Below are positions 6,917 through 13,737 of a stretch of 40,633 bases of DNA, piece after piece; position 1 is the first letter of the stretch, and each line of letters opens with the position of its first letter. The notes beneath the pieces were generated by a model. That model ran no database searches and had not been told where the DNA came from. It saw nothing but the letters and a program-made list of their open reading frames with translations. This stretch comes from Actinotalea sp. C106 (GTDB taxonomy: Bacteria; Actinomycetota; Actinomycetes; Actinomycetales; Cellulomonadaceae). The DNA lies in assembly GCF_023630195.1 (NCBI RefSeq), contig NZ_JALPKN010000002.1, positions 1-40,633 on the forward strand, read 5' to 3'. The position numbers and the translations under genes are program-made.

Positions 6917-6989
6917 GCGCCTGTAGCTCAGGGGATAGAGCACCGCTCTCCTAAAGCGGGTGTCGGCAGTTCGAATCTGCCCAGGCGCA
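6917..6989 (+). tRNA. tRNA-Arg (anticodon CCT)
   Basis: A 73-nt cloverleaf: acceptor stem GCGCCTG/CAGGCGC (6917-6923 and 6982-6988), D-stem GCTC/GAGC, anticodon stem CCGCT/AGCGG with loop CTCCTAA, T-stem GGCAG/CTGCC with loop TTCGAAT, and discriminator A6989. The anticodon CCT (6950-6952) reads AGG. The terminal CCA is not encoded. The 3' half is repeated, with differences, at 8999-9043, marking it as the attachment site of an integrated element. Confidence 0.97.
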
Positions 6990-6992
6990 CAG
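6948..6992 (+). repeat. attL: tRNA-Arg 3' half
   Basis: Covers the anticodon loop to just past the 3' end of the functional tRNA-Arg gene. It pairs with the copy at 8999-9043, offset by 2051 bp with no gaps. Confidence 0.7.
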
Positions 6993-7003
6993 GGTGTTTG
7001 TAG

Positions 7004-7093
7004 TACTTCGCCTGATGCTGGACGTTTTGGCTTCGGTTGAGCCTTGACGGTGTTTCGGCTGATGGTTGACAGGTACTTCGGCTGATGGTTGAC
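7004..7093. repeat. Three copies of a 20-nt repeat beside the tRNA
   Basis: TACTTCGGCTGATGGTTGAC occurs at 7074-7093. A close copy begins TGTTTCGG at 7051-7070, and a diverged copy at 7004-7023 differs at three positions. Copies two and three are spaced 23 bp apart. The region is less GC-rich than the rest of the window and codes for nothing. It may be stacked ends of lost insertion sequences or binding sites of a lost island protein; I cannot identify the parent element. Confidence 0.7.
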
Positions 7094-7139
7094 GCTCTCG
7101 GAGCCTGACCCGGTTTCCCGGACAGTTGCGGTTAGGTGA

Positions 7140-8015
7140 TCATGCCGCGGTGACCACCGCGGTGTGAAGGTCCTCGAACTCGTTCGGGGACCGGTAGCCG
7201 AGGCCGGAGTGGCGCCGGACGGGGTTGTAGAAGCCTTCGATCCACTCGAAGATCGCCGAGGCCAGCTCCTCGCGACTGGTCCAGATGCGGCGGTCGAGGA
7301 GCTCGCGCTGCATGGTCGACCAGAACGACTCCATCATGGTGTTGTCCACGCTCGAGGCGACGCGGCCCATCGACCCGAGCAGGCCGGCCTGGCGCAGCCG
7401 GTGGCCGAAGATCCAGGACGTGTACTGGGCTCCGCGGTCCGCGTGGACGATCGCCCCCGGACGCGGCTGACGACGCCAGATCGCCATCTGCAGGGCGTCG
7501 ACGACCAGCTCGGCGCGCATGTGATCCGCGATCGACCAGCCCACGACCTTGCGGGTGAAGACGTCGAGGACCGCGGCGCAGTAGACCTTTCCGGTGCTCG
7601 TGGGGTGCTCGGTGATGTCGGTGCACCACAGCCGGTCCGGGCCGTCGGCGGTGAAGTCCCGCCGGACCAGGTCCTCGTGCGGGGCCGGCAGCGGGCGCTG
7701 GCCACGGCGTTTGCGCCGGTGACACACCCCGACCAACCCCGCGGCGCGCATCAACCTCGCGACGCGTTTACGACCGCAGGGGACCCCCAGGCCCAGGCGC
7801 AGCTCGGCATGGACCCGCGGGGCGCCATAGGTCGCCCGCGACCCGTGGTGGATCGCGGTGATCGTCGCGGTCAGGGCCTCGTCGGCAACCTCTCGCGCGC
7901 TCGGCTGTCGTCGGGCCGCGTCATAGAGCCCTGAGCGGGAGATGCCGAGCACCCGGCAGGTCAGCGCGACGGGCACCCCGTCGGCCGCCAGCTCCTGGAC
8001 CAGCCGGGCACTCAT
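7140..8015 (-). CDS. IS3-family transposase OrfB (DDE catalytic subunit)
   Basis: Catalytic part of the transposase, 291 aa from ATG 8015. An N-terminal HTH_21-type region (VALTCRVLGISRSGLYDAARR, then ATYGAPRVHAELRL) precedes an RNase H-fold integrase core with the D-D-35-E residues: D in LWCTDITEH, D in IVHADRGAQYTS and E in MMESFWSTMQREL. The C-terminus has FYNPVRRHSGLGYRSPNEFE, typical of the family. It is made mainly as an OrfAB fusion by -1 frameshifting at the CCCAAAA heptamer (fwd 8015-8021). The ATGA overlap with orfA could also allow separate OrfB by reinitiation. No disruption is seen. Confidence 0.93.
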   Translation of the reverse strand: MSARLVQELAADGVPVALTCRVLGISRSGLYDAARRQPSAREVADEALTATITAIHHGSRATYGAPRVHAELRLGLGVPCGRKRVARLMRAAGLVGVCHRRKRRGQRPLPAPHEDLVRRDFTADGPDRLWCTDITEHPTSTGKVYCAAVLDVFTRKVVGWSIADHMRAELVVDALQMAIWRRQPRPGAIVHADRGAQYTSWIFGHRLRQAGLLGSMGRVASSVDNTMMESFWSTMQRELLDRRIWTSREELASAIFEWIEGFYNPVRRHSGLGYRSPNEFEDLHTAVVTAA

Positions 8016-8299
8016 TTTGGGAGGACGTTCTCCCGGGCGAAGTAGGCGCTGGCGCGTTTGAGGATCTCGTTCTCCATCTCCAGCACCCGGGTCCGGCGGC
8101 GCAGCTCGACGAGCTCTTTGCGCTCGTCGCTGGTCAGGCCCTCCCGGCGGCCGGCCTCGACGTCGTCCTGGGCCATCCAACGGCGCAGGCACGACTCGCT
8201 GATCCCCAGATCCGACGCGATCTTCGCCACCGGCTGCTGACCCGAACGGGCCAGGTCCACTGCTCGACGCCGAAACTCCGGCGGCTTGGCTGCAGGCAT
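8012..8299 (-). CDS. IS3-family OrfA (HTH/leucine zipper subunit)
   Basis: DNA-binding half of the transposase, 95 aa. A transposase-8 type HTH, PPEFRRRAVDLARSGQ then VAKIASDLGISESCLRRWM (about 4-41), is followed by a coiled coil, ELVELRRRTRVLEMENEILKR split by heptads (about 62-83), ending FARENVLPK. The start is ATG 8299, with GGGAG 8 nt upstream; an in-frame start at 8326 adds nine residues and is less likely. The last codons CTC CCA AAA TGA form a canonical X_XXY_YYZ slippery heptamer immediately before the stop. Confidence 0.9.
   Translation of the reverse strand: MPAAKPPEFRRRAVDLARSGQQPVAKIASDLGISESCLRRWMAQDDVEAGRREGLTSDERKELVELRRRTRVLEMENEILKRASAYFARENVLPK
8015..8021 (-). promoter_or_regulatory. 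Programmed -1 frameshift site CCCAAAA
   Basis: Read on the minus strand, C CCA AAA directly precedes the orfA stop TGA. Slipping back one base gives CCC AAA ATG and continues into orfB. This matches the canonical slippery pattern used by IS3 elements to make the fused transposase. Confidence 0.8.
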
Positions 8300-8330
8300 C
8301 CTCGAACTCCCTTCCGAGACGATCATCGCC

Positions 8331-8813
8331 TCAGATCAGGTGTCCGGAGAAGCGGGTCAGGCTCCCTTCCGCCTTGTCGAGGAAGACGTGCGACCAACCG
8401 ACCCCGCCAAAGTGCTCACCCAGTGCGTACATCAGCTCGCGCCCGAAGTGGGGCCAGTTCTGCGGAAGCCGATGTGACTGACGATCCCATGCACTCTGGA
8501 ACACGGCCAGGGCGGCTGACACGTCGGCGGGCTGGACGTGACCGAACCCCGAGCGCCTCACAACTTCTCGAACAGCATGCAGACCCTCGACGATCTCGTC
8601 GGCAGCGCTTGCTGCCGCGCTCCTGCGCTTCAGCGCGATATCCCGCGTGAGTGCGCTCCGAGCGCCGATGTACCCAGCACCCAGCGCCCCCACAAGGCTC
8701 GCCACGGCCGCAACGATGGCGCTGGTCCAGCCCCCACCCAAAGTCAGTGTCTCCACGAGCGGTAGCGTCCCAGGCGACACCGACACGACGACATGGAGGT
8801 CAGACATCGCCAT
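8331..8813 (-). pseudogene. Membrane-anchored protein gene truncated by the IS3 element
   Basis: 160 readable codons from ATG 8813 (an alternative ATG lies at 8807). One hydrophobic segment, WTSAIVAAVASLVGALGAGYIG, lies near residues 30-51, followed by a basic stretch SALTRDIALKRRSAAA and a soluble helical region with WDRQSHRLPQNWPHFGREL. The last 11 or so codons (GSLTRFSGHLI and stop) are read from the IS terminal repeat, so the original C-terminus is gone; no continuation is found on the far side of the IS. Family not recognised. There is only a weak purine run (AAGAG) upstream. It is part of the tRNA-Arg island remnant. Confidence 0.6.
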
Positions 8814-9188
8814 GCGCTCTTGTAGGCAGCTTCGCTTTGGCTGGTTCAGCGGCAGCCCCGGCTCGACCGACGTAGGACCCCATGGAAGCCATCTCGTGGT
8901 CAGCGCGTGGTCAGCGCTGGCCTCGGAGCGGGCTCCACACACGAACTGCCTGCGTGTATTTCCGCAGGTCAGCGCACTGCGCGCCGACCAAGATCGAACT
9001 CCTGCAGCGGGTGCCAGCAGTTCGAGTCTGCCCAAGCGCACAAGGCCGCCACGCGCCCCAGCGGCCCGAACGCCACCCGTCTCGGCGATCCACGTGGCCA
9101 TTCTCTCCGTGCTCGACGTCAGCGTCGACGTTGGCAGCGGTCGAGCGACAGCACTGACAAAGACGACTCGCCGGGCCCGAAGACTCCG
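8814..9188. other. Non-coding end of the island
   Basis: No convincing gene. It holds an 11-bp tandem repeat CGTGGTCAGCG (8895-8905 and 8906-8916) with GGTCAGCGC again at 8967-8975, a small hairpin CCTGCG/CGCAGG (8949-8954 and 8963-8968), and the attR copy of the tRNA end. Past 9043 I see nothing in particular up to the next gene. Confidence 0.6.
8999..9043 (+). repeat. attR: degenerate copy of tRNA-Arg 3' half
   Basis: CTCCTGCAGCGGGTGC and onward matches tRNA positions 6948-6992 at 38 of 45 bases, including the anticodon triplet and TTCGAGTCTGCCC of the T-arm. The T-stem keeps 4 of 5 pairs. With no 5' half present it is not a tRNA gene. Confidence 0.7.
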
Positions 9189-10154
9189 TCATCGGACAGG
9201 TCGTGGGATGACGGGCGCGGCCCCGCCGACGCTGAACCGGACGGTGTAGCCGTCCCGGTGCCTGCGGTGGTTCAGGTCGCTCAGCAGCTGGTGCAGGATC
9301 CACATGCCGCGACCGGATGGGCTGTCGAGCGGCACCGGTCGGAGGCCCACGAGCGGGTGAGGTCCTGAGCCCGCGTCGGTGACCGAGACGGTGAGCTGTC
9401 CGCCTTCGGTCCACGCCTTCACCTCCACGGGACCGCGACCGTGGCGGGTGCCGTTGGTGACCGTCTCGGTGACGGCCAGCATGGCGGCCTGGATCGCCTC
9501 GTCAGTGAGCCCGAGCGCCGCGGCGAGGGCCTGGACCGCGCGGCGCGCTGCGTGGACCGAGGGTTCGTGCAGCGACAGGTGCGGGGTGGTCGCCTCGATG
9601 GGGTGTGGAGGGAGGTCGAGGTAGCCGGCGATGTGGTCGTCCAGATCCGCGAACCGTTCGCTGGAGCGTGTGCCGGCGGGGGTGTGCAGCTGTGCGTGGC
9701 TCGCGCTGAGGTCCTCGAGCATCGTCTCGTCGAGCACATCGGTGTCGTACGCGCACGTGCCCCACACCCGGTACGGAGCCAGGACGTAGTTGGCGGCGGC
9801 TTCGTACCGGCGCCACTCGTGCCACTGGTGCTCGGTCATGGTGGGCATCTGGTTGACCACCCGGACGGAGGACGCGGTCGCGTCCAACCGTGCAAGGGAC
9901 TGCTGGAACCTGTGCAGGTCCCGGCCAGGGAAGCGCTCACGGCTCCGCTCGGGAATCGCCTGGATCCCGTCGACGCCGGGCACCGCGGCCAGCAGGTGGT
10001 CGACGAACTCCGGTTCGCCGACCACGAGGATCTCATCCCCTGCGGCGGCGCCGTCCTGCACGAACGGCGTCATCAGGTCGACCAGCGCGTCGGTGCCGGT
10101 GTGCAGGACGAGCTCGTGGCGGAAACGCTCTTCAGGGCGCGTGGTGGTAGTCAT
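9189..10154 (-). CDS. MEDS-domain anti-sigma-type kinase (RsbA/RsbW-like)
   Basis: 321-aa cytoplasmic regulator. The N-terminal half (about 1-195) resembles the MEDS/DcmR sensory domain: HELVLHTGTDALVDLMTPFV, GDEILVVGEPEF, and VRVVNQMPTMTEHQWHEWRR. The C-terminal part is a GHKL ATPase of the RsbW/SpoIIAB kind: an N-box AVTETVTNGTRHGRGP, then DAGSGP as G1 and SGRGMWILHQLLSD as G2. Such proteins phosphorylate a STAS antagonist and bind a sigma factor, and the upstream gene is a STAS protein. The start ATG 10154 overlaps that gene's TGA (ATGA), so the two are coupled. No sigma factor is encoded nearby, so the target is unknown. Confidence 0.85.
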   Translation of the reverse strand: MTTTTRPEERFRHELVLHTGTDALVDLMTPFVQDGAAAGDEILVVGEPEFVDHLLAAVPGVDGIQAIPERSRERFPGRDLHRFQQSLARLDATASSVRVVNQMPTMTEHQWHEWRRYEAAANYVLAPYRVWGTCAYDTDVLDETMLEDLSASHAQLHTPAGTRSSERFADLDDHIAGYLDLPPHPIEATTPHLSLHEPSVHAARRAVQALAAALGLTDEAIQAAMLAVTETVTNGTRHGRGPVEVKAWTEGGQLTVSVTDAGSGPHPLVGLRPVPLDSPSGRGMWILHQLLSDLNHRRHRDGYTVRFSVGGAAPVIPRPVR

Positions 10155-10975
10155 GCTGGATCCGTCCTGACGTGGCGCAGGCCGAGGGTATGGACGAGCC
10201 ACTCGGTCAGCCCTTTCGCTCCCACCAGCGTCACCGTGACGTCCAGTGAGTGGGCGGCTCGATCGACCGCCATGAGACTCGAGTGATCGATGAACTCGAC
10301 CTCGGACATGTCCAACGTGACGCGGGAGGGGATCTCCGGACCGATCGCCATCAGAGCGCCCCAGAGGTTGGCGGCCGACGCCCTGTCGACCTCACCGACC
10401 AGGGCGAGTCCGCCTCTCGTGTCGGCTGCGCGCACGAGGAACGGGGACAGGGCGCCACGGGTCAGCGGATGGACCCGGGCCGCCTCGGCGACGGTCTGCT
10501 CTCCGACGTCGTCGACGTCATAGCCGCACAGGATGGTGAGCGGGTGGTCCACGGCGTACCGGTCGATGAGGTGCTCGGTCCGGATCCACTGACGCAACCC
10601 GTCCGGCGTGCGGACGAGGTCGTTGACGTCGGTCAACACCCGCAGCCCCGTGTAGCCGTCCGCGACCGCGGCGCGGGTCATCCGGTCGAACTCCGACGGT
10701 GCGCTCGTGGGTGACATCCTCCGGGCCGGAACCTGCGAGTCGTTCAGCACCAACCGTCCGTGGTCGGCAGGGCGGCCCACCTGGGCGACGTCGGACACGA
10801 TCGTGTGCTCGAGCCCGGTGGGCGTGACCTTGGTGAAGGCCACCAGCTGGCGGCTGTCCAGACCCTCCCTGATGTACTCCCGCGCTGTCTGCGCATACTC
10901 CTCAAGTCCGCGGAACCACCAGCACACGTGGTCCCCGGGGGAGCGTCCGGTCGCCGTCGTCAGGAAACGCTGCAC
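10151..10975 (-). CDS. MEDS-STAS protein (anti-sigma factor antagonist-like)
   Basis: 274 aa. The N-terminal MEDS/DcmR-like region (about 1-170) has GDHVCWWFRGLEEYAQTAREYI, read in two parts, with LTDVNDLVRTPDGLRQWIR and ILCGYDV. The C-terminal STAS domain (about 180-274) has GGLALVGEVDRASAANLW, RVTLDMSEVEFIDHSSLMAV and VTLVGAKGLTEWLVHTLGL. The phosphorylatable serine of the SpoIIAA DSSG motif aligns with the first serine of DHSS, so regulation by the coupled kinase is plausible. The start is GTG 10975 with GGAGAGG about 6 nt upstream; the open frame continues further but is arginine-rich and not protein-like. First gene of a two-gene operon. Confidence 0.85.
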   Translation of the reverse strand: MQRFLTTATGRSPGDHVCWWFRGLEEYAQTAREYIREGLDSRQLVAFTKVTPTGLEHTIVSDVAQVGRPADHGRLVLNDSQVPARRMSPTSAPSEFDRMTRAAVADGYTGLRVLTDVNDLVRTPDGLRQWIRTEHLIDRYAVDHPLTILCGYDVDDVGEQTVAEAARVHPLTRGALSPFLVRAADTRGGLALVGEVDRASAANLWGALMAIGPEIPSRVTLDMSEVEFIDHSSLMAVDRAAHSLDVTVTLVGAKGLTEWLVHTLGLRHVRTDPA

Positions 10976-11241
10976 ATGACACCTCTCCGCGCTCTGCCCC
11001 CTCAAGGCCGCTGTTCCAGGATTTTTCCACAGTGCCTCGTCAGCTGCCCGGTGTGTGCCACAGGTCGTGGATGGTCCTCCCCTCGACGAGGTGGTCCGCC
11101 ACAAGGGCGCCTGGCGCTCGTGACCACCTGCATCAGGCGAGCGTCGCCGTCGGCGCCTCGTCATGGAGCTGAGGCACCGCCTGATCGCTCGCTCGGGAAG
11201 GCTCCTCCACCCCCGCGCGACCCGTGCTGCAAGATGTCCCC

Positions 11242-11832: not shown

Positions 11833-13737
11833 CTAGCCCCGAGAGGCATCTCCGCTACCGGCCCCGGCCGGCACCCGCTGCCCGTCGAGGAACGCGACCA
11901 TGGCCGCCAGCGCCACGGGCCGCGCTAGCAGATACCCCTGCCCGTAGTTGCACCCGATGCCCGTGAGCGCCTCGAGCTGCTCGGTGGTCTCGATACCCTC
12001 CGCGACCAGCGGCAGGCCCAGGTCACCGGCCATCGCCGCCATCGAGCGTACGATGGCAGCGGCCCGGCGGTCGCTGGAGACCTCCACGGTGAAGGCACGG
12101 TCGAGCTTGATGATGTCGACCGGCATGAGGCGCAGCGCGGCGATCGACGACTGCCCGACTCCGAAGTCGTCCATCGCGATGAGGATCCCCCGCCGTCGCA
12201 GCTCCTCGAGCACCGGGACCACATCCGCGCGGATCAGCGTGCTCTCGGTGACCTCGATGATCAGCTGCATCGTCTCGGTCTGGCCGCTGGGGATCATGTC
12301 GAGGATGCGCGTGCTGACGAGCTGCGCCGCTGACATGTTGATCCCGATGCTGAGCTGCTTGCCTGCCGCGGCGGACAACGGTCGGCTGTGCGCGGTCACC
12401 TCGGCGAGCACGAACGCTCCGATCTCGTCGATCAGACCGGCCTGCTCGGCGAGCGGGATGAAGGTCTCGGGGGAGACAGGCCCACGGACCGGGTGCGTCC
12501 AGCGGGCCAGGGCCTCGAGGCCGTCGACCAGCCGGGATCGTAGGTCGACGACGGGTTGGTAGTGCACCGAGAACTCGCCGCGTGAGACTGCGCCGTGCAG
12601 GTCCTGGACGAGGGACGCCTGCTCGACCTGCGCCGTCAGCATCTGCTCGGTGAACTCCACACACCTGCCGCGGCCGGCTGCCTTGGCCGCGTACATCGCG
12701 ATGTCGGCCTCGCGGACCAGGGTGTGGACGTCCTTGTCGGCTCCCGCCTGGGTGAGCGTGATGCCGATGCTGGCCGCGACGTGCACGTGGTGCCCGGCGA
12801 CCGGTACGGGCGTGGCGACGGCCTCGAGCAGGTTCCCGGCCATGACGCGCGCTGCCTCGGGGTCGACGCCGTGCAGGAGCACCGCGAACTCGTCGCCACC
12901 GAGGCGGGCGACCACGTCCTGCGCCCGCAGGCGCGAACGCAGCCTGCCGGCGATGGTGACGAGGAGCTCATCGCCCGCGCGGTGCCCGAGGCTGTCGTTG
13001 ACCGCCTTGAAGTCGTCCAGGTCGCAGAAGAGCACGGCGACGTCGTCGGGGGCGTCTCGCCGACGACGGTCGGAGTCCCCGGGACCCTCCGACGGGGACC
13101 GCGGCTGTGCGAGCAGGGCCTCGTGCACCTGCTGGTGGAAGAGCACCCGGTTCGGCAGGCCGGTCAGGGCGTCGTGGGTGGCCTGCCGCAGGAGCGCGTC
13201 CTTGCCCTCCTGCAGCTGCCGGACCACCGCGTCCTGGCTGCGACCCTTGCGGATCAGCACGACGGCGATCGCCGTCATGGTCGTGGCCATGTACAGCACG
13301 TCGGTGAGGGCCTGGGCCGGTGGCACGAGCGTGAAGGCCACCAGGGCGTCGAGGGCGATCGCCGCGGCGGTGATGACCACCGCCGCACCCGTGCGGAGCT
13401 GCGAGGCGGCGTAGAGCACCGGGACGCAGAAGAAGATGTGCCCGGAGATGCCGGCGTCCTTCGTCGCGATGTCCAGCACAGCGATCGCGACGAGCGCTCC
13501 CAGCGGGATGAGCGACAGCACCGGTGACGGCCGACGCCCACGCGGGGAGCGCAGGAAGACGCCGATCAGGACGAGCAGGACGGGCACGACCAGGACGAGG
13601 GGCCGTGCCGACGGACCCTCGGGCGGGTCGACGACGGCTGCTCCCGCGGTCACCACCGCAGCCGCGACGAGGAGCACGCCGGCGGTCGGACCCGCCACGG
13701 CCGCATCGCGAGGCTCGAAGTGCCTCCGGATCTCCAC
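11833..13737 (-). CDS. Membrane GGDEF-EAL protein (c-di-GMP synthase/phosphodiesterase)
   Basis: 634 aa. About six membrane helices lie in 15-163, followed by GGDEF (about 180-365) and EAL (about 372-620) domains. The cyclase site is intact (GGDEF 280-284), with a product-inhibition I-site RxxD (RAQD 271-274) exactly five residues upstream. The EAL site also looks intact: E408 in EAL, N467 in INMSA, E495 in IIEVTES, D523-D524 in MDDFG, K544 in IKLD and E580 in AEGIE. It could therefore both make and hydrolyse c-di-GMP; which dominates cannot be told. A linker inside GGDEF (211-230, SPSEGPGDSDRRRR) is an unusual charged insertion before the DDVAVLFCDLDDFK strand. The start is GTG 13737. It stands alone, 50 nt from the tetR-type gene on the same strand. 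Confidence 0.93.
   Translation of the reverse strand: MEIRRHFEPRDAAVAGPTAGVLLVAAAVVTAGAAVVDPPEGPSARPLVLVVPVLLVLIGVFLRSPRGRRPSPVLSLIPLGALVAIAVLDIATKDAGISGHIFFCVPVLYAASQLRTGAAVVITAAAIALDALVAFTLVPPAQALTDVLYMATTMTAIAVVLIRKGRSQDAVVRQLQEGKDALLRQATHDALTGLPNRVLFHQQVHEALLAQPRSPSEGPGDSDRRRRDAPDDVAVLFCDLDDFKAVNDSLGHRAGDELLVTIAGRLRSRLRAQDVVARLGGDEFAVLLHGVDPEAARVMAGNLLEAVATPVPVAGHHVHVAASIGITLTQAGADKDVHTLVREADIAMYAAKAAGRGRCVEFTEQMLTAQVEQASLVQDLHGAVSRGEFSVHYQPVVDLRSRLVDGLEALARWTHPVRGPVSPETFIPLAEQAGLIDEIGAFVLAEVTAHSRPLSAAAGKQLSIGINMSAAQLVSTRILDMIPSGQTETMQLIIEVTESTLIRADVVPVLEELRRRGILIAMDDFGVGQSSIAALRLMPVDIIKLDRAFTVEVSSDRRAAAIVRSMAAMAGDLGLPLVAEGIETTEQLEALTGIGCNYGQGYLLARPVALAAMVAFLDGQRVPAGAGSGDASRG

Follow-up and report, generated by a model that had tools for sequence, protein, structure and literature searches.

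A 2-kb stretch beside tRNA-Arg(CCT) of Actinotalea sp. C106 as a likely relic of a tyrosine-recombinase element family

What left an altered half of a tRNA gene about 2 kb beyond the intact gene in Actinotalea sp. C106? An earlier note, made from the sequence alone, had read this arrangement as the decayed footprint of an island integrated by a tyrosine recombinase. We followed up this reading in the window, i.e., the whole stretch of 40,633 bp that was analysed (C222, one of the 661 contigs of a 3.6-Mb genome), and in related genomes. The conserved ends of an element family, the genes of its relatives and an empty site support it, and we consider it very likely that the 2-kb stretch is a relic of a tyrosine-recombinase element family targeting the tRNA-Arg(CCT) anticodon loop in Actinotalea and Cellulomonas.

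The tRNA gene, its displaced half-copy and the DNA between them

The single tRNA gene found in the window by ARAGORN and Rfam encodes tRNA-Arg(CCT). Its 74-mer is identical in 17 of 20 loci from other genomes; two of the remaining three are distal stretches and the third (L074) has six mismatches. L074 (G005:C151) holds a tRNA-Arg with a different T-stem and a relaxase fragment ~2 kb downstream. Within the window, the two 45-base copies (Table 1) agree at 38 of 45 positions in direct orientation and at an offset of 2051 bp, so that the repeat described in the earlier note, with its constant offset, was borne out by repeat search and shuffles. The repeat starts exactly with the seven-base anticodon loop (CTCCTAA) and ends just beyond the tRNA, as a correctly oriented direct repeat of the tRNA 3′ end of the kind that marks a tRNA-targeted island. 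Chance similarity was ruled out by a shuffle control and a scan of the window: across 20 mononucleotide shuffles, the closest match in each carried 18–21 mismatches (24–27 of 45 bases matched) vs. seven observed, and a both-strand scan of all 40,633 bp at up to 13 mismatches found no third place. The att cores differ at seven of 45 bases, two of them inside the anticodon loop (CTCCTAA vs. CTCCTGC), and their crossover bases are thus not identical, as those of a tRNA island should be.

Table 1 Features at the tRNA-Arg(CCT) locus of the window
Feature	Position	Strand	Basis
Intact tRNA-Arg(CCT), target of integration, with its 3′ half also serving as attL	6917-6990	+	ARAGORN and Rfam
attL core, from anticodon loop CTCCTAA to just beyond tRNA end	6948-6992	+	repeat comparison
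Start of element left end (AGGGTGTTTGT), found also in relatives ahead of their GCAGGTCAG	6991-7001	+	relatives' left ends
End of an IS481-type IS remnant, ~23-bp repeat doubled (7049-7070, 7072-7093)	7002-7099	.	comparison with G018 and repeats
IS3-family IS, OrfA 8012-8326, OrfB from 7140, inverted ends, without target duplication	7100-8365	-	profile match and repeats
Cargo remnant, ORF cut by the IS3-family IS, without known family	8366-8813	-	ORF and family searches
Right end conserved in the family: GTGGTCAGCGCGTGGTCAGCG, GAACTGCCTGCGTGTATTTCCGCAGGTCAG, CCAAGATCGAA; probably arm-type sites of the integrase	8895-8998	+	right-end alignment
attR, displaced and decayed tRNA 3′ half, loop CTCCTGC not CTCCTAA	8999-9043	+	repeat comparison and alignment

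The insertion sequence (IS) previously noticed between the copies belongs to the IS3 family. Its OrfB transposase scored 323.5 bits against NF033516 (cut-off 160), its inverted arms lie at 7100–7143 and 8322–8365, and the OrfA/OrfB layout with terminal inverted repeats is that of the family. Unlike a typical IS3 insertion, it is flanked by TCG and CTT, i.e., by no short target-site duplication, which is consistent with an adjacent deletion. A related copy elsewhere in the genome (91%) ends within one base of the same edge. The earlier note had also claimed a broken gene, and this holds in part: a minus-strand open reading frame (from ~8813 down to 8366) does run into the IS, and "broken" was concluded from that truncation, as the frame has no family match. 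Weak partial matches to it (31–40%) in three of 220 other genomes of the family provided no context, and its homologues were dropped as a marker of island origin. The reported loss of the integrase agrees with tblastn using seven integrases and nine relaxases (E ≤ 1e-3), which gave no match in the window; the island thus has neither the integrase nor the relaxase of an integrative and mobilizable element (IME). In G000, no relaxase match was obtained, and integrase matches were limited to 44–47% over 48–57 aa.

Two further features had gone unnoted, the IS481-type end (~7002–7099) and the conserved right end (8895–8998). The former stops at 7099, where the IS3-family IS starts, and is 91% identical to G018, the closest relative found, over the 79 bp following the tRNA. 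Its assignment comes from a transposase fragment in G018 whose best match was the IS481 profile NF033577 at 119.9 bits, below the cut-off of 224. The same end occurs in G008 as far as the edge of the contig. The ~23-bp unit doubled in the window (7049–7093) is single in G018.

An element family with common ends at one tRNA gene

The right end of the window island is present in 13 of 19 genus genomes, the window's included, and its best match in each of the 12 (of 18) others is 74–85% identical over 76–157 bp. In the left ends of relatives, the tRNA is followed by GTGTT..GCAGGTCAG and, ~80 bp in, by TGGTCAGCGTGTGGTCAGCG; their right ends carry a doublet GTGGTCAGC..GTGGTCAGC, a GCATGTATTTCCGCAGGTCAG-like block and CCAAGATCGAA immediately ahead of the core. 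The window shares the right end of these fuller elements and has ~11 bases of the left end left. GTCAGC and TGGTCAGC are invariant across 21 aligned right ends, although part of this invariance reflects selection because 11 rows besides the window were found by similarity to it; eight L rows were found by att copies alone, and partial matches of G006, G012 and G014 are left out of the alignment. We infer that the shared words of the right ends are integrase arm-type sites.

The copies share as little as CTCCTAAAGCGGGTGTCGG (in G010), which locates the crossover to the anticodon loop. Of the 21 right copies, 17 keep this loop intact (16 by script and G016b by alignment); it is changed in those of the window (CTCCTGC), G016c, G018 and L101. 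As crossover bases should agree at insertion, the two changes in the window probably arose afterwards. They would hinder excision, and the window island is probably dead, given that its copies differ inside the crossover.

Relatives at the same site encode the genes that the window lacks. The tyrosine integrase (PF00589 and PF22022) was aligned from eight elements, the other seven being 89–96% identical to the first. Searches at E ≤ 1e-30 matched it in 14 of 19 genus genomes, with at least 91% identity in a long match in 11 of the 18 other than the window's; it is split over two frames in G006, reduced to a C-terminal fragment with a stop (54%) in G018 and represented by a 40% relative only in G003, and no match at this threshold was obtained in G000, G004, G005, G007 and G009. 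A MobF relaxase-helicase of ~1000 aa (NF041492, 247 bits vs. a cut-off of 100; PF08751, PF13604) adjoins the integrase. At E ≤ 1e-10, relaxase matches occur in 14 of 19 genus genomes, many of them elsewhere in the genome and only ~50% identical, and none in G000, G018, G004, G005 and G009. Plasmid-borne relatives of the integrase were considered and set aside, all being below 60% identity among the matches listed (10 of 184 records).

Scanning of genome contigs with the aligned integrases yielded 26 loci on 25 contigs, a set that overlaps the G genomes, to which at least nine of the contigs belong. Seven loci (L113–L117, L119, L121) hold distant relatives with 71–75% identity, all at the same tRNA. 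tRNA-Arg(CCT) lies in the fetched stretch of 19 of the 26 loci (at most eight mismatches of 74; it is missing from the stretches of L109, L110, L118, L120, L123, L124 and L125). Of these 19, 11 have a second half-copy (at most 14 mismatches) on the one strand that was scanned within the fetched stretch, and eight do not; five second copies are exact at 45/45 (L106, L107, L113, L115, L119). The longer islands ending in the same attR that the note had suggested seeking are therefore seen both in these half-copies and in the shared right end. Relaxase matches, some of them fragments, were obtained in 22 of the 26 loci, and integrase and relaxase thus occur together among relatives at this site, as in an IME, though not at every locus. 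Spacing between tRNA and second copy ranges from ~6 kb (L115) to ~39 kb (G016). It is ~10 to 39 kb in G006, G010, G011, G013, G016, G017 and G030, and in the second half-copies of G010 and G013 the agreement is limited to roughly the first 20 bases.

One element, that of Cellulomonas sp. B6 (L106), is 13.5 kb long with exact 45/45 ends. The integrase and nine of ten picked open reading frames were scanned, the dropped frame overlapping the integrase. Besides integrase and relaxase, they comprise a GmrSD_N protein, a small HTH_17 protein whose position would suit an excisionase, and six proteins without family. No capsid, terminase, FtsK, type IV secretion system (T4SS) family or mating apparatus was detected among these ten proteins, although the picking of frames may miss genes.

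Anti-phage genes are part of the cargo. For each of ten elements at the slot, between one and five proteins were picked by hand and submitted to PADLOC; owing to this choice, the results are examples and not a rate. Matches were obtained in seven elements (G010, G012, G013, G016, G017, G018, L106) and none for the chosen proteins of G001, G011 and G014; counted by protein slot, with the truncated frame of the window included, 12 of 20 matched and eight, that frame among them, did not. Seven matches exceeded 100 bits: TIR and NsnA (G013), a type I methyltransferase (G012), a type II methyltransferase (G017), PD-Lambda-5 A and B (G018) and HEC-06 (L106). Three fell at 64–79 bits, i.e., a ThsA-like SIR2 and PDC-M55C (G010) and AbiU (G016), and two further matches were weaker.

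An empty site, which the note had likewise proposed as a check, is present in G007. This genome carries the tRNA without a second copy in the 20-kb locus, a right-end match or a family integrase. From ~1.8 kb after the tRNA, its flank is 81% identical over ~1.6–1.7 kb to the sequence that lies past the second copy of C. chitinilytica (L115) and of Cellulomonas BIN39 (L119), with shorter matches in C. biazotea (L107; 403 bp at 76%) and in C. gelida (L122; 322 bp at 75%). The first 1.8 kb after the tRNA is nearly devoid of matches (a single 62-bp piece, in L119), so that the shared flank starts ~1.8 kb away and not directly behind the tRNA. A 79% relaxase lies elsewhere in the G007 genome.

Occupied sites frequently appear to hold more than one element. 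Sequence resembling the element left end follows the second copy in G002, G006, G013, L101, L110 and L119, which indicates tandem arrays, and such arrays look common at this site. At G016:C4:253638-318130, a long tandem array has four element right ends over ~45 kb after one tRNA-Arg(CCT).

Decay of the window island and its closest relative

G018 is ~95% identical to the window genome in yqeY and shares its left junction, as described above. Its island has a decayed attR 10.6 kb from attL, the right copy having 14 mismatches of 45. The IS481-type IS is ~1.1 kb long in G018, with the element left end resuming behind it and with CAGGCGCACA(A/G)GGTGT, read by eye, on both sides, probably a target duplication. 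A pair resembling PD-Lambda-5 A and B lies ~0.5 kb before the decayed attR in G018, and the integrase of this element is broken. An IS481-type copy is also found beside a 68% integrase at G008:C80:31050-33678; as the tRNA contig of G008 ends inside the same IS end, this IS may recur at the junction of tRNA and element.

The right end of G018 is 76% identical to that of the window, no closer than those of other species (74–85%). Orthology of the two right ends thus gains no specific support, and they may not derive from the same insertion. Beyond attR, 2.2 kb of the window with two RsbA-like genes are missing in G018, where only a short distance separates the decayed attR from the orthologue of 11229 that follows it. 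The two adjacent genes, of RsbA/MEDS-type anti-sigma kind (9189–11164), stand just outside attR and are absent from the G018 locus. A 634-aa frame at 11833–13737, which we take to resemble GGDEF/EAL proteins, separates two stretches of the window that lie closer together in G018. Upstream, the distance from yqeY to the tRNA is ~5.9 kb in G018 (L056, G018:C27:222001-242000) vs. 127 bp in the window, and in G003 a 182-bp stretch that starts 108 bp upstream of the tRNA and takes in the gene is 90% identical to the window. Together, these distances and this match suggest that G018 may hold a second insertion upstream of the tRNA.

Origin of the relic and its place among known elements

The ancestor of the window island would have been an IME-like element with an integrase, a MobF relaxase-helicase and variable cargo including anti-phage genes, presumably moved by conjugative transfer. 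Its integration at the anticodon loop would have rebuilt the 3′ half of the tRNA from the element's copy (attL) and displaced the original half to the far end (attR). In the order of decay that we infer, an IS481-type IS entered the left end in the window lineage, and the IS3-family IS and a deletion then took out integrase, relaxase and most of the cargo. As this IS lacks a target duplication, a deletion adjoining it probably removed the rest of the IS481-type IS, the left end, the integrase and the relaxase. Drift of attR would have left a 2-kb immobile relic. Several results weigh against this reading: the window gave no match to an integrase or relaxase, the right end of G018 is no closer than those of other species, G018 lacks the 2.2 kb beyond attR, eight tRNA-bearing loci showed no second copy on the scanned strand, and G007 has a late start of the shared flank and a relaxase elsewhere in its genome.

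The relic could also descend from more than one element. Its two att copies would then go back to separate elements of an earlier tandem array whose intervening stretch was deleted, a variant of the above reading rather than its opposite. The left-end-like sequences behind six second copies and the four right ends in G016 are in line with such a collapse, and a left junction common with G018 next to a right end not specially close to that of G018 makes it a credible competitor of descent from one element common to both. On the other hand, the window has no third half-copy at up to 13 mismatches, and we hold the collapse to be a tentative possibility, somewhat short of an even chance. An old partial duplication of the tRNA gene, made with no integrase involved, would fit a diverged copy in an island in which no integrase was found. 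It fits poorly with a copy that starts exactly at the anticodon loop behind a conserved family right end. Moreover, the earlier note had named a second copy at the same distance in relatives as the sign of such a duplication, and spacing instead varies from ~6 to 39 kb; in relatives, an element right end precedes such copies, and the empty site lacks the copy. Variable spacing, family right end and empty site rule this origin out for practical purposes, and we regard it as extremely improbable. A prophage or a TraB/FtsK-type actinomycete integrative and conjugative element as the ancestor, in place of a MobF mobilizable element, is given some room by the many other integrases in these genomes and by a window that keeps no gene telling the kinds apart. 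The ends of the window match elements with integrase and MobF, however, and the ten L106 proteins scanned include no capsid, terminase, FtsK or T4SS family; such an ancestor appears quite unlikely.

The relic of a MobF-type element, which remains our preferred reading, is ordinary in kind. As in the tRNA islands mapped by Islander, where a regenerated tRNA and a displaced 3′ fragment mark the ends, tandem arrays are known and the anticodon-loop crossover class ("A") accounts for 2083 of 3919 islands (PMC4383910), the window has a regenerated tRNA, a displaced 3′ fragment and a crossover at the anticodon loop. Islander also filters for the presence of an integrase gene (PMC4383910), and a filter of this type would be expected to drop the window island, in which none was found. 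The relic also resembles a cis-mobilizable element (CIME), which has lost its integration and transfer genes and kept attL and attR (Guedon 2017, PMC5704250). Unlike a CIME, its att cores differ at 7/45 bases (two in the anticodon loop) and an IS interrupts its left end, which makes cis-mobilization doubtful.

More interesting is the family around it, which combines MobF in an IME-like element with variable defence genes at a single tRNA slot. In encoding a tyrosine integrase and a relaxase, relatives at the site resemble iMOBs, i.e., integrative and mobilizable elements that encode a relaxase (PMC11389934); among the ten proteins scanned from one of them (L106), no mating apparatus was seen. 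According to the 2017 review, no canonical IME was then known to encode MobF (PMC5704250); the relatives differ from those canonical IMEs in encoding it, and the window relic in having neither integrase nor relaxase. MobF relaxases are thereby indicated in IME-like elements, a combination beyond those of that review (PMC5704250). Searches of open-licence papers turned up none on a Cellulomonadaceae tRNA-Arg(CCT) MobF element family, and of the three that mention both Actinotalea and a genomic island none looked on topic.

On the whole, we lean towards an undescribed MobF-type IME family of Cellulomonadaceae that shares the tRNA-Arg(CCT) slot, accretes in tandem and swaps anti-phage cargo between species. 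Its members would lose mobility through IS at the attL junction and drift of the crossover, and defence genes could be retained, as exemplified by the PD-Lambda-5-like pair beside a broken integrase in G018. The result is a mapped integration slot, with one tRNA gene, a defined crossover, conserved ends, one unoccupied example and occupants that are complete, stacked in tandem or dead, in which the arrival, stacking and fixation of mobile defence islands can be followed.
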